IMG/VR virus record: IMGVR_UViG_3300025133_000369 | Location: 1-33,960 of that record | Reading direction: 5' to 3' (one strand) | Source of the DNA: a virus | Length of the DNA stretch: 33,960 nucleotides | Shown: positions 2,232 to 27,046 of the stretch, in pieces | Position numbering within the stretch: position 1 is the stretch's first letter | Layout of the letters: each line of letters begins with the position of its first letter | Made by a program: the position numbers and the translations under genes | The notes under the pieces: generated by a model | Database searches by the model: none | Told to the model about the DNA's origin: nothing | Seen by the model: only the letters and a program-made list of their open reading frames with translations

Positions 2232-3080
2232 TTAGAGTGCTAGTTGTTGTATCAAAGTACTACTTTTTTCACAATAAGCAATTAGCTCATCGTAATCGGT
2301 TGAAAAAACCGAATAGGTTATTTTCATTCTATCATGTTCAATATTAGATTTTAAGTTTAATTGTATTGCCTCCATCAATGTTTCATCTTCCTCTAATCTT
2401 TTTTTTGGAACTCCATAATAATAATTTTTTTCTCTTGGAATGTCAAGAGAAAAGAACAATTTTTCTTCATTATTTTCCACATCCAATATGCCTAGTGTAC
2501 TAACGCGAGCAGTAGGGTACCTATTAGTCGTCGTCGTGAGAACCGGTTTTGAATGGTCAAATACATTAATCATGTGGTATGTGGAAGTTATCAATGTGTT
2601 TAAAGAATCTTTGTGTTTCATTATTGGTACTGGGCCTATTATATCAGAAATCTTTTGATTGTCAAGTAAATAAACTCTTTTAAATAAGCCGGAGCGCGCG
2701 TATTCTTGGAACACGTTGAAAAGCAAGTTGTTTTGATATGCTTTGTCTCCAACTAACTCTATTCTTTCTGGAATAATATATATGACTGTAATGTTAGTGT
2801 GGTCTTTGATTTTAGATAAAATAGATAAAGCAGCGCCAGACACCATGCCACAACTGGTGATAAATAATGTTTCGGACATCACCCCCTCTTGCAAATACTT
2901 TACTATGCCACGTGGCAAGTTTTCTTCATACAGTTCTGGGGATGCCTGACGCTTAAGACCAAAAGAAGTCTTGGTCTTTTTTAATCCTTCATCTAACTTA
3001 ATTATTTTATATTGTGGATATTGTTTAAATTGGTCAGCAATATTACATCCTGCTTGACCTAAACCTATTACGGTTTGCAT
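2232..3080 (-). CDS. Divergent tubulin/FtsZ-like GTPase-fold protein
   Basis: A 282-residue protein that reads as a divergent tubulin/FtsZ superfamily member. The N-terminus VIGLGQAGCNIADQF (4-18) matches the first beta strand and T1 loop of FtsZ (IIGVGGAGCNAV-like). FITSCGMVSGAALSI (73-87) sits where FtsZ and tubulin have the GGGTGSG signature loop and keeps only part of it. It is followed by VIYIIPERIELVGDKAYQN (99-117), similar to the FtsZ segment after the signature loop, and VYLLDNQKIS (136-145), like the strand and Asn-containing loop near the nucleotide. The long H7-like helix (159-174) is followed by no clear NxDxxD/E T7 catalytic motif, so GTP hydrolysis may be weak or absent. It starts 10 nt after the polymerase stop with GAGGA as ribosome binding site. 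Homology is inferred by eye; I am fairly confident of the fold, less of filament formation. Confidence 0.72.
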   Translation of the reverse strand: MQTVIGLGQAGCNIADQFKQYPQYKIIKLDEGLKKTKTSFGLKRQASPELYEENLPRGIVKYLQEGVMSETLFITSCGMVSGAALSILSKIKDHTNITVIYIIPERIELVGDKAYQNNLLFNVFQEYARSGLFKRVYLLDNQKISDIIGPVPIMKHKDSLNTLITSTYHMINVFDHSKPVLTTTTNRYPTARVSTLGILDVENNEEKLFFSLDIPREKNYYYGVPKKRLEEDETLMEAIQLNLKSNIEHDRMKITYSVFSTDYDELIAYCEKSSTLIQQLAL

Positions 3081-22688: not shown

Positions 22689-22722
22689 AAAAAAAACCCC
22701 GGTTTCTCGAAAGAAACCGGGG
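22689..22722 (-). terminator. Strong rho-independent terminator after major capsid gene
   Basis: Minus strand: CCCCGGTTTCT, loop TTCG, AGAAACCGGGG, then eight T. The 11-bp stem is perfect, the loop is a UUCG tetraloop and the T run is long, so it is a textbook intrinsic terminator. It ends the major capsid transcript 28 nt after the stop codon. Confidence 0.95.
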
Positions 22723-22750
22723 CTTAATTCAAACTAAATTAGTTTATTTC

Positions 22751-24520
22751 TTAGCTTGTCGCGCCTGCCTCACCTAAGAGACCACGAACAACGACTACAC
22801 CATACATATCAGGTCGAACCATCTTCTTAGCGTAGCGAGTCATGACACCCTTGCGTGGCACAAAGTCCTCTACACCAAAGATGGTGGGAGTAACTTGCAA
22901 TGGCACATAAGGAGCGTATACATAACCGCTCTCTAGGAAGCTGTTACCCTTACGACCGACCAATATAAGATTGCGCGGGAAATAAGGATCAACATATACA
23001 TCATAGCGCTTGCTGAGTGTACCAACCTTTTCGGCTCCTGCAGTGCCCTTTGCCTCGTCACTAGTGACATTGGCGCGGAATCCAGCAGTGAACTCAAGAA
23101 TGTTGGCAACCTCTGGCGAGGTAACTAGGAAGTTAGCTCCACCGCGAAGAGTCTTACGGTGAATCTGTGCGGAAACATCATTGATGGTTTCGCCAAGAGT
23201 CTCGTACCACTCCGAAACGGTACCTGTGAAGTCCGGTGCCGCAGATGAGGCGCCAAGCTCCTTGCCTGTTTTTCTCTCAACGAAAAGGCCCGGTGAGCGT
23301 GCCCAGTAGTATGTACCGGCAGTTGCACCTTTAACCAAATCTTCAACGATCTCGCGATCGATTTCAAGAGCGATTTGCTCCGAAAGAATCGAAGTAAGCT
23401 CAACCTCTGCGTCAAGGTTATGATAAGCATTAAGATCCTGACCGAGTTCCGGCGTCCACTTAGCTTTGAGCTTCTTGGTTTGCGCTGTGACCGACAGAGA
23501 ATCAACTTTGAGATTAATCTCTGGAATCTCAGACTGGCCCTCTAGGCCCCAATCTTCCTTGCCGACAACAGATCCTTGAGCCGTTGAGCCAGAAAAGACG
23601 TCGACTTTCGGGTAAGAAAGAGGTGCTGTGCTAAATGCATTGCCTGTAGTAGCACTAGTTTCCCCAGAATCGCCAACAACAACAAAGCGAACAGCTGTGG
23701 AACTAGTAGTAGCTCCGTCGGCGCTTTTGCTGAGCTGTGTTAAACGACGAACAAGCGTACCAACGGACGCTGTTGTTGAACAAGCAGCGAGGTCATCAAA
23801 ATTGAAAACGTCGCCAGCGCTAGTAGCAGTACTCATATCGATTTCAGCAATAACAAATGCGCGTCCTTCGGTAAGATCCTGGTCGAAACGCAAAATAGTA
23901 TTAACAACATCAGTCGTCAATGCCGCATCAGACACAGTACCAAGCGCACTGGCCTTGCCGTTGGCGCCAAGCGTACCAGAAACCACAACAACGTGGCCCG
24001 GCGTGATGGATCCAGTGGGTGAAGAATATCCGTTAGTCAAGTTGAAAAACTGACCGGCGGCAGTTCCTTCTTCACCATCCAAATTCAGACCATCAGCAAT
24101 TCCACTAGCGACCTGTCCACCGCCATATAGCGACTCTGAAACAGCAAAGCCTAGGCGACTGGTTGTGTCTCCATCAGTTCCACCGAACGTGAAATCTAGG
24201 AAGAAAATGAGACCACTAGGTAGACTCATTGGCTGAACACTAACAAGATCGTTAGCGATCAGGCCGCCGAATACACGACGGACGATGGGAAATGCGACGG
24301 CTGCAAAACCTTCAACATCGCCACCAGACATGCTAGTAGACGACTCTTTAAGCAGCTGCTTAGCTTGGTTCTCTAGAAGACGAGCCATACCATTTTTGGC
24401 ACTTTCGCTTCCGAGACCTTCAAGAAGACCTGTTTTCTCCCACTTATCGAGGAGAGCAGCACCTTCCTTACGCATATCGCGATTTACGATACCTTCTGTA
24501 AGTTTATTTAAAATAGACAT
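22751..24520 (-). CDS. gp23: Major capsid protein (gp23-like)
   Basis: Forms the capsid shell. The 589-residue protein has the T4-like layout: a helical propeptide (first 60 residues, LLDKWEKTGLLEGLGSES, then LLENQAKQLLKESS), then AAVAFPIVRRVFGGLIANDLV (about 73-93) and VQPMSLPSGLIFFLDFTFG (about 95-113), which are family hallmarks, and a C-terminal FVPRKGVMTRYAKKMVRPDMYG region. LLKE (56-59) followed by SS fits the [LI]xE cleavage consensus of the gp21-type protease; T4 cuts at residue 65. Residues about 157-305 are Thr/Ser/Gly-rich and look like an inserted surface domain. AAGGAG precedes the ATG. It lies after the scaffold gene and is followed by a strong terminator. Confidence 0.95.
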   Translation of the reverse strand: MSILNKLTEGIVNRDMRKEGAALLDKWEKTGLLEGLGSESAKNGMARLLENQAKQLLKESSTSMSGGDVEGFAAVAFPIVRRVFGGLIANDLVSVQPMSLPSGLIFFLDFTFGGTDGDTTSRLGFAVSESLYGGGQVASGIADGLNLDGEEGTAAGQFFNLTNGYSSPTGSITPGHVVVVSGTLGANGKASALGTVSDAALTTDVVNTILRFDQDLTEGRAFVIAEIDMSTATSAGDVFNFDDLAACSTTASVGTLVRRLTQLSKSADGATTSSTAVRFVVVGDSGETSATTGNAFSTAPLSYPKVDVFSGSTAQGSVVGKEDWGLEGQSEIPEINLKVDSLSVTAQTKKLKAKWTPELGQDLNAYHNLDAEVELTSILSEQIALEIDREIVEDLVKGATAGTYYWARSPGLFVERKTGKELGASSAAPDFTGTVSEWYETLGETINDVSAQIHRKTLRGGANFLVTSPEVANILEFTAGFRANVTSDEAKGTAGAEKVGTLSKRYDVYVDPYFPRNLILVGRKGNSFLESGYVYAPYVPLQVTPTIFGVEDFVPRKGVMTRYAKKMVRPDMYGVVVVRGLLGEAGATS

Positions 24521-24543: not shown

Positions 24544-25632
24544 TTATTTTAATCCTGCGAGAATTTTCATTCTCTCTGAAAAAGCGTTATTATTCGCTTT
24601 AGATTTTGCCTCTTTACGAGGAATAAACGCTGAAGAGCTACGTGTTACAACTTCGTTCAGTGATTCCGGACTCCTTCTCTTTTTGGAGACCCCCACCGCA
24701 CTTTGAAGAGTTTCAAAAATAATTTTTGCTTCTTCAACCGTAGTTGCATTTGAGATAGCTTCGACAATTTGATCTTTTTGTCGCTCATTCAAGGAGACGC
24801 TATTTAAAATGCGATTTTGATATAACAACTTGGCGTTAGTCAAGTTGCCTTCATTAAGCTTATCTTTAAGCTTTTTAATGACTGTGCCATACTTATCTAC
24901 TTTTTCTTTCAATAGTTGGACTTTTTTATCTGTTCTTGTTTGTTCTCTTAAAAGAGAATTATTTTTTCTAGTGAGAAGTCGAGATTCTTTTTGTAATTCT
25001 GTAAAGGGTGTTTGGCCAACTTCTCTGCCTAAATCTGTCGGCGAAGCTGGGACGCAATTGCCGTTAACTTCTTTTTCACCATCTGCGCAAGGGGATTCCG
25101 CTTCTTCGACGACTTCTTCTGTTTCTTCTTCGACGATTTCAAGATCACCGCCGAGCATTTCAGCAATAATAGAAGTTAAATCGTTTTCGTCTATTGTAAC
25201 GTCATCAGCTATGGCTAGTTCTTCTAACTCTTCTTCTGAGATTTCAACTTCTTCGTCGATTTTATCTTCAATTTTTTCAGCTAAGTCTTCGCGAGATGCC
25301 ATTTCGTCAACATTTAAGCCGCCGTTTTCTAGCTCTTCTTCCATCATTTCTTCCAATTTGTTAAGATCAATATTGATAACTTCATCTTCTTCGGATAACT
25401 GTGCAGAAGGGAGTTCGTCAACTAAATCTAAGTGCTCGCCTTCTCCGTCGGAAATCAGCGCTGCGTCCTCTTCCATGTCGAGTTCGTCTAGTTCATCTTG
25501 CTCTAAAATCTTTTCTACAGCTTCCTTGATTTCTATCTGATATTTTTCGATTACTGCCTCTTCGGCTGTTTGTTTTGCTGTTTCTTTTAATTGTTCAGCA
25601 TCAATAATAGCTTGTTCTAACATGGAAGACAT
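24544..25632 (-). CDS. gp22: Prohead core scaffolding protein (gp22-like)
   Basis: A 362-residue, strongly acidic helical protein, the usual character of T4-like prohead scaffolds, which fill the prohead and are degraded by the protease. The N-terminus LEQAIIDAEQLKETAKQTAEE and the ending FSERMKILAGLK match scaffolds of aquatic T4-like phages. Residues 45-170 are Glu/Asp-rich. A short Cys-bounded loop (CADGEKEVNGNC, about 182-193) is followed by a long Lys/Glu coiled-coil. Several LxE/IxE sites are available for the protease. AAGGAG precedes the ATG at 25632; a second in-frame ATG is residue 4. It lies between bS21 and the capsid gene. Confidence 0.88.
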   Translation of the reverse strand: MSSMLEQAIIDAEQLKETAKQTAEEAVIEKYQIEIKEAVEKILEQDELDELDMEEDAALISDGEGEHLDLVDELPSAQLSEEDEVINIDLNKLEEMMEEELENGGLNVDEMASREDLAEKIEDKIDEEVEISEEELEELAIADDVTIDENDLTSIIAEMLGGDLEIVEEETEEVVEEAESPCADGEKEVNGNCVPASPTDLGREVGQTPFTELQKESRLLTRKNNSLLREQTRTDKKVQLLKEKVDKYGTVIKKLKDKLNEGNLTNAKLLYQNRILNSVSLNERQKDQIVEAISNATTVEEAKIIFETLQSAVGVSKKRRSPESLNEVVTRSSSAFIPRKEAKSKANNNAFSERMKILAGLK

Positions 25633-25657: not shown

Positions 25658-25665
25658 TAATTAGT
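25658..25665 (-). promoter_or_regulatory. ACTAATTAGT palindrome upstream of scaffold gene
   Basis: The recurring ACTAATTA box here extends to a perfect 10-bp palindrome ACTAATTAGT, and overlaps an adjacent inverted repeat GTACTT-T-AAGTAC. It lies 25 nt upstream of the scaffold ATG in a 64-nt gap. A promoter for the abundant scaffold and capsid proteins is plausible here. Confidence 0.35.
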
Positions 25666-25696: not shown

Positions 25697-25927
25697 TTAG
25701 TCTTTTGATACACTCTTTTCTTTATGCAATTTTTCTAAAACTTTTTTTCGTCTTTTTAGCTCTTTTCTTCTCTTTTCCGAAGGCTTCGTATAAGTTTGCT
25801 TTTCAAACCAACTCTCAATAATTTTTTCTTTTTTAACTTTTTTAGAAAAACGTTTAATCATTCGCTCAATTGATTCGTTTGGAAATTTAGGTTTGACTTC
25901 TGCTAATATTGGTGTTTTTTTGCCCAT
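25697..25927 (-). CDS. rpsU: Phage-encoded ribosomal protein bS21 homolog
   Basis: 76 residues, close to bacterial bS21 (about 70). EVKPKFPNESIERMIKRFSKK (about 10-30) corresponds to the 'v..nEp.e.alRRFKr' core and FEKQTYTKPSEKRRKELKRRK (about 41-61) to the 'r.yyekPs.krrrk' part, followed by a basic helix. bS21 is a small subunit protein near the mRNA exit/anti-SD site. Phage copies are known from marine and other environmental phages and may replace the host protein to favour phage translation. Here it lies between a head-associated gene and the scaffold gene. A GGAG ribosome binding site precedes the ATG by 7 nt. Confidence 0.85.
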   Translation of the reverse strand: MGKKTPILAEVKPKFPNESIERMIKRFSKKVKKEKIIESWFEKQTYTKPSEKRRKELKRRKKVLEKLHKEKSVSKD

Positions 25928-25937
25928 GTATACTCCG

Positions 25938-26372
25938 TTAAATCATCTTTCGCCATTGTTTGCCACCGAGAGCCATGATTCCAGAGATATCAACACCCGA
26001 ATCATCAGGGGCGACTCCAGACAGGGCGCCCGCATTTGGCTCCCCGGGTTCTTGCGCGGTTGTGATGCCGCCTTGTATTGGGCTTGTACCTGCGAAAACA
26101 TCAGTATCGAACCCGGCGGCGTCTAATAGTTTTCTTTTTTGTTCTTTTAAAGATCTTTGTTGTTCGGCTAGCGCTTCCATTCTTTTTATCTCAACTTCTT
26201 TTTGATTAACTTGAGAAATAGGCTGCTTGGCTTCAACAATAGTTTGAATGGGCTGTAAACCTTTGACCACTTCAGAGATGATATTAGAGAGAAGCCCTTG
26301 CTCTATAAGAGCTTCATTAATACATTCTTTTATGATAGGTTTAAGTAGTTGTTTTAATTGGGATTTTTTCAT
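25938..26372 (-). CDS. Small head-module protein of unknown function
   Basis: 144 residues. The N-terminus MKKSQLKQLLKPIIKECINEA followed by LIEQGLLSNIISEVVKGLQ is helical and typical of small proteins encoded between protease and scaffold in environmental T4-like phages. A Gln/Glu/Lys-rich coiled coil (about 58-85) and a Gly/Pro/Ala/Asp-rich flexible region (about 90-130) follow, ending GGKQWRKMI. It may be an internal head or core protein; position is the only support. GAGGT lies 5 nt before the ATG. Confidence 0.7.
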   Translation of the reverse strand: MKKSQLKQLLKPIIKECINEALIEQGLLSNIISEVVKGLQPIQTIVEAKQPISQVNQKEVEIKRMEALAEQQRSLKEQKRKLLDAAGFDTDVFAGTSPIQGGITTAQEPGEPNAGALSGVAPDDSGVDISGIMALGGKQWRKMI

Positions 26373-26380
26373 TTTACCTC

Positions 26381-27046
26381 TTATTTACTCTTCGTTCCTT
26401 TTCTTAGAACTTCATTTAACGCACGATTAATCCTGTCGCCTTTTGTGAACATTTGATTTAAGCGCTTGGTACCTTCAGCGACATTGAGCTTCATTTGATC
26501 GTAATGTGGTTCTAAATAATAGGCTTCCGGAGATGAAGGCTCCGAAACAGCATCAAAACAAATAAGCTGTAAATCATCTTGTACGATTTGTATCGGACCT
26601 TGATCATCCTGGCTTTCCTGCAAAGAACCCATCGCTCTTGAAGAAAATCCAAAAAGGACGCCGCTCTCATAGAGACCTCGGAGGATGTCTCCGGATGGTG
26701 TTTTTAATACTTTAATTGTTCCAAGAACACTATCGCCATCCCACCAGACACGTGTAATAATATGAGAAGCGTTTTTTAAATTTATAACTGAATCGTCCGG
26801 ATGATCGCATTCTCCAATTGCTCTGTTTTCTCTTACAAGTTTCTGATAGTTTTCAATTTCGCGTTCCAATACATCACGTGGATAAGTTCTGCCATTTCCA
26901 TTTCTCACATTACATTGTTGTAATTTTGCTGGAAATATAGTGAACCCTTCATTGATCATCTTTTTTTCGCCTTCTGTAAGAAGATCTTGACATCCGCGTT
27001 CATCGCATTTTAATTCAAAAAATTCTCTTAAAAGTACTTTAGACAT
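26381..27046 (-). CDS. gp21: Prohead core protease (gp21-like)
   Basis: Serine protease that matures the prohead by degrading the scaffold and trimming the capsid and other core proteins. In 221 residues (T4 gp21 has 212) it shows RNGNGRTYPRDVL (48-60), the catalytic-His motif GECDHP (H82), GFSSRAMGS (133-141, catalytic Ser at 135/136) and FDAVSEPSSPEA (164-175), equivalent to the Asp-containing 'fDiV..PS' segment. The ATG has AAGGAA 9-10 nt upstream. Two GC-rich hairpins and a tiny ORF lie just before it. It lies upstream of the scaffold and capsid genes that encode its substrates. Confidence 0.93.
   Translation of the reverse strand: MSKVLLREFFELKCDERGCQDLLTEGEKKMINEGFTIFPAKLQQCNVRNGNGRTYPRDVLEREIENYQKLVRENRAIGECDHPDDSVINLKNASHIITRVWWDGDSVLGTIKVLKTPSGDILRGLYESGVLFGFSSRAMGSLQESQDDQGPIQIVQDDLQLICFDAVSEPSSPEAYYLEPHYDQMKLNVAEGTKRLNQMFTKGDRINRALNEVLRKGTKSK

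Follow-up and report, generated by a model that had tools for sequence, protein, structure and literature searches.

A ribosomal protein bS21 homologue encoded among the head genes of a group of T4-like phages

The viral sequence analysed here (IMG/VR record IMGVR_UViG_3300025133_000369, positions 1 to 33,960; the whole 33,960-nucleotide stretch is referred to as the window) raises the question of what a gene for a ribosomal protein does among the genes that build a phage head. A first-pass annotation had placed a bS21 gene at 25697-25927, where the open reading frame begins with ATG. The features around it are as follows.

22694-22725, minus strand: strong intrinsic-terminator-like hairpin (14-pair stem) with a T run, after the capsid gene
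22751-24520, minus strand: major capsid protein gp23 (PF07068, 3.5e-75)
24544-25632, minus strand: probable prohead scaffold in the gp22 position, 362 amino acids, recognised by its position before gp23 and by homologues that occupy the equivalent place
25658-25665, minus strand: ACTAATTA element, situated 33 nt ahead of the scaffold start; a candidate regulatory element, perhaps a late promoter
25697-25927, minus strand: bS21 (rpsU-like) gene, 76 amino acids, recognised by its PF01165 match, a profile match to E. coli bS21 and the helices of its AlphaFold2 model
25933-25936, minus strand: GGAG Shine-Dalgarno (SD) site of bS21, 5 nt upstream of the start codon, of ordinary strength (−6.1 kcal/mol)
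25938-26372, minus strand: g144, a conserved 144-amino-acid gene and the constant upstream partner of bS21, found with it in 27 of 27 records
26381-27046, minus strand: prohead protease, T4 gp21-like, Peptidase_S77 (PF03420, 2e-29)

The bS21 identity claimed in the first-pass annotation is borne out. The HMM search proposed beforehand as a check on it matched residues 16-62 to PF01165 (Ribosomal_S21) at 7.8e-11 and 42 bits, above the curated cut-off of 27, and a family profile built from 23 phage relatives matched E. coli bS21 at 1.8e-12 and solved bS21 chains, including that of E. coli, at 1e-12 to 1e-13. The match to the PHROGs S21 family is weak (0.0046). The product is rich in lysine and arginine and follows the bS21 core pattern RF.kk.kk...e......Y.KPS..kR, with F27, K30, Y46, K48 and S50 conserved. 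Its AlphaFold2 model (mean pLDDT 85) has three helices (residues 20-33, 36-44 and 49-75), and the nine Foldseek matches to this model are individually non-significant (best E = 0.96) but are ribosome entries throughout, several of them being bS21 chains by the names obtained in the profile search. As judged from its sequence, the open reading frame is a member of the bS21 family.

The surrounding late block is T4-like and runs terminase, portal, three small genes, prohead protease, g144, bS21, probable scaffold and gp23 capsid; the flanking Peptidase_S77 protease and Gp23 capsid genes are confirmed, and bS21 does lie among head genes. The probable scaffold gave no Pfam match over the cut-off. 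g144 has helices at its N-terminus and a conserved DPGVDISGIMALGG motif at its C-terminus, and its AlphaFold2 model is of low confidence (pLDDT 66). Elsewhere in the window, a gene at 2232-3080 adjoining those for a short family A DNA polymerase and a gp32-like SSB encodes a 282-amino-acid protein that starts MQTVIGLGQAGCNI and has a weak, below-cut-off match to Tubulin/FtsZ.

Relatives were fetched from IMG/VR by their capsid protein, a few by bS21 itself, and 48 longer records were searched. bS21 and g144 occur in an identical set of 27 records, bS21 is present in 26 of the 26 records with the protease, and it lies downstream of g144 on the same strand in 27 of 27, directly after it in about 20; these records are fragments, two with an identical region, and the counts are not independent events. 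Records that lack bS21 do not show its loss because the protease and g144 are absent from them too. Absence or breakage in close relatives had been named in advance as evidence against the gene; it is intact in every record that reaches the region, and the requested comparison of its position reveals a conserved slot. The slot tolerates insertions on both sides: between g144 and bS21 they measure 0.4 to 3.6 kb in seven records, and the interval between bS21 and the scaffold takes them likewise. Individual examples of ∼0.4-4.6 kb are seen between g144 and bS21 in records L003, L006, L018, L024 and L066, and between bS21 and the scaffold in L016, L019, L030, L058 and L090. Within close pairs the dN/dS of bS21 is 0.08-0.12, and pN is below pS in 105 of 105 pairs. 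These values indicate that the gene is under purifying selection and selectively maintained rather than a chance or stray reading frame, and the distribution identifies it as a fixed core gene of its T4-like phage group.

The first-pass annotation further held that bS21 would be made together with the scaffold and capsid proteins. The head-gene neighbourhood on which this rested stands, but a promoter-like element that lies between bS21 and the scaffold makes a shared main transcript improbable. A CTANTTA motif, mostly ACTATTTA or ACTAATTA, is found in the 80 nt ahead of the scaffold start at 60 of the 69 distinct loci of relatives, about 40 nt from the ATG, compared with 1 of 23 for bS21, 0 of 21 for g144, 1 of 19 for the protease, 1 of 81 for the capsid gene and 4% of random 80-mers. 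The motif was picked post hoc from the data and the start-calling rule was altered once; under the first, cruder rule the figures were 37 of 75 for the scaffold, 1 of 23 for bS21 and 1 of 81 for the capsid gene. Its strand bias in the group is 516 versus 52 overall, and 221 versus 4 for ACTATTTA. Of the 16 ACTANTTA sites on the minus strand of the window, 10 fall in the 80 nt preceding a gene; the scaffold, sheath and tail tube genes are among those so preceded. Minus-strand sites include those at 25665, 22021, 21561, 18914, 15583 and 13306, and the sequence also occurs in relatives (L002-L090). The T4-type late promoter TATAAATA was considered and rejected, with 22 occurrences on the coding strand of relatives versus 43 on the other strand and no enrichment.

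The geometry of the ACTANTTA element makes it a candidate late promoter of the phage group, although it could be another kind of leader element. Should it prove to be a promoter, bS21 would close the portal-protease-g144 block, and the scaffold and capsid genes would begin a new unit. Because of this promoter-like element, bS21 is probably off the main scaffold-capsid transcript. Such a split agrees with the report of Chen et al. 2022 that the corresponding region of their phages is not one operon (PMC9723584).

Phages with bS21 beside head genes were already described in 2019-2022, and the window is a further case; in the literature considered we found no description of the universal g144-bS21 pair or of the scaffold-upstream element. 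Among 900 published phages, protease (310) and capsid (154) genes are often within ten genes of bS21 (PMC9723584), as both are in the window. The Bacteroidetes jumbo phages of that study also carry bS21 within the TerL-portal-protease-capsid region, although there it is on the reverse strand whereas in the window it is on the same strand. The closest cultivated counterpart is the Microcystis phage Mel-JY01 (PP395634), whose annotated RpsU (WWT39311) occupies the same slot in a T4-like head block with the same order and strand: protease, a 154-amino-acid gene, bS21, scaffold-position genes and capsid. It differs in having three further genes between RpsU and the capsid gene, and the two capsid proteins are 38% identical. 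Homology between g144 and the middle gene of Mel-JY01 is not supported (probability 2%), with no detectable relation. Since tblastn with the window bS21 gave no match in phage records at E 0.01, the bS21 sequences of a relative and of Mel-JY01 were used as queries instead. A weak bS21-like open reading frame precedes the capsid gene of an uncultured 484-kb phage by 2 kb. Flavobacterium phage immuto, the nearest terminase relative, has no bS21 in the slot seen in the window, and its gp069 was rejected as a bS21 on sequence.

Other phages separate bS21 from the head genes. S21 is a core gene of pelagimyophages (PMC7029224), and the Pelagibacter phages HTVC008M and Mosig carry PF01165 proteins that the bS21 tree places beside the window clade; unlike in the window, their genes are near CobS/AAA and clamp genes, in HTVC008M ∼16 kb past the capsid gene. 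In Vibrio phage 2.275.O, bS21 is also away from the head genes, between IF-3 and an L7/L12-like gene (L129, 7406-8637). The head position is not needed for bS21 function, because pelagiphages keep the gene far from it. This bears on the idea that bS21 doubles as a head assembly factor, such as a basic prohead core protein, or travels in the particle and enters the cell along with the DNA. The fixed protease-scaffold position in 27 of 27 records and in Mel-JY01 would suit such a role, and Chen et al. likewise considered packaging (PMC9723584), but the bS21 core is conserved and pelagiphages and a Vibrio phage manage with the gene elsewhere; we regard this idea as highly improbable. Hardly better placed, in our judgement, is the proposal that bS21 is no optional aid to translation but an obligatory part of the head block with g144 as its dedicated partner, where it would either contribute to head morphogenesis or, from its place just ahead of the scaffold-capsid promoter, serve as a timed switch.

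We consider it probable that the gene encodes a working phage bS21 homologue that replaces or tops up host bS21 on the 30S subunit late in infection and keeps or redirects initiation. It would be produced at the same time as the head proteins or shortly before them; late production is plausible by analogy with published metatranscriptomes of other bS21 phages, with bS21 co-expressed with structural genes in the Bacteroidetes jumbo phages and in lake phages (PMC9723584). The protein would then join 30S subunits that lack or have lost host bS21, or displace the host protein, and maintain or redirect translation initiation during bulk synthesis of virion proteins. The side-by-side IF-3, bS21 and L7/L12-like genes of the Vibrio phage point to initiation as the target. 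The bS21 of HTVC008M, the sole phage bS21 for which incorporation has been shown, enters E. coli 70S ribosomes, but in the one functional assay found such ribosomes had ∼5% activity in an E. coli system (PMC6375957), which counts against our explanation, as does the distance of bS21 from the head genes in pelagiphages.

A narrower form of this explanation, to which we give somewhat less than an even chance, is that phage bS21 simply tops up bS21-depleted ribosomes with no preference for phage mRNAs. bS21 is loosely bound and exchangeable (PMC6375957), in keeping with such an activity, and in its share of strong SD sites the window phage is not clearly distinct from T4. Weighing on the other side, the phage proteins have a divergent N-terminal stretch and form their own clade, which could mean a changed function but is not decisive. 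In the bS21 tree, of a short protein with nine PDB stretches as its cellular set, the window group makes up a single clade (95/90), with pelagiphage bS21 adjacent and the sampled cellular proteins separate from it. The phylogeny, suggested in the first-pass annotation as a route to the host, names none, given the shortness of the protein and the small cellular set. A scan for host genes in the genome gave one 22-residue match, which is spurious.

Tuning of ribosomes towards late mRNAs with strong AAGGAG sites, said in the first-pass annotation to be most of them, finds less agreement with the data. Exact AAGGAG is upstream of 10 of 34 tested window starts, so that its prevalence had been overstated, although SD pairing below −6 kcal/mol is found at 18 of the 34 (53%) compared with 8% of control ATGs. 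Strong sites also precede replication-type genes such as ssb. By the same measure the strong-SD fraction is 39% in HTVC008M, 50% in Mel-JY01, 32% in T4, 17% in Synechococcus phage S-WAM1 and 3% in immuto, a set of few phages beyond whose reach a link between bS21 and SD strength lies; it simply separates phages of SD-using hosts from the Flavobacterium phage. T4 has no known bS21, and its strong sites leave the tuning claim unsupported. Several window genes without an SD site (TerL, tail tube 2 and g82) overlap the gene before, and translational coupling is therefore the simpler explanation for them.

Strong SD sites are used more in Flavobacterium when bS21 is lost or mutated (PMC9976891), a precedent for a shift in ribosome choice. 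However, Bacteroidia have an aromatic residue at the position of F. johnsoniae Tyr54 (PMC9976891), which blocks the anti-SD, and the phages of Chen et al. keep it (PMC9723584), whereas the window protein, by ungapped offset from KPS, has Lys62 there together with heavy SD use. Anti-SD release of the Bacteroidia type was rejected on these two grounds. Such frequent use of SD sites speaks against a Bacteroidia host, and because 53% of its starts have strong SD sites the phage probably infects an SD-using host outside that class. Selection of AAGGAG-bearing late mRNAs by phage bS21 is, on this evidence, an unlikely account.

In this widespread, SD-using group of T4-like phages bS21 appears as a fixed core gene, and this extends the best-studied case, that of Bacteroidetes phages with hosts that seldom rely on SD sites. 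With the same arrangement present in cultivated Mel-JY01, tests of ribosome incorporation and of late translation are directly possible.
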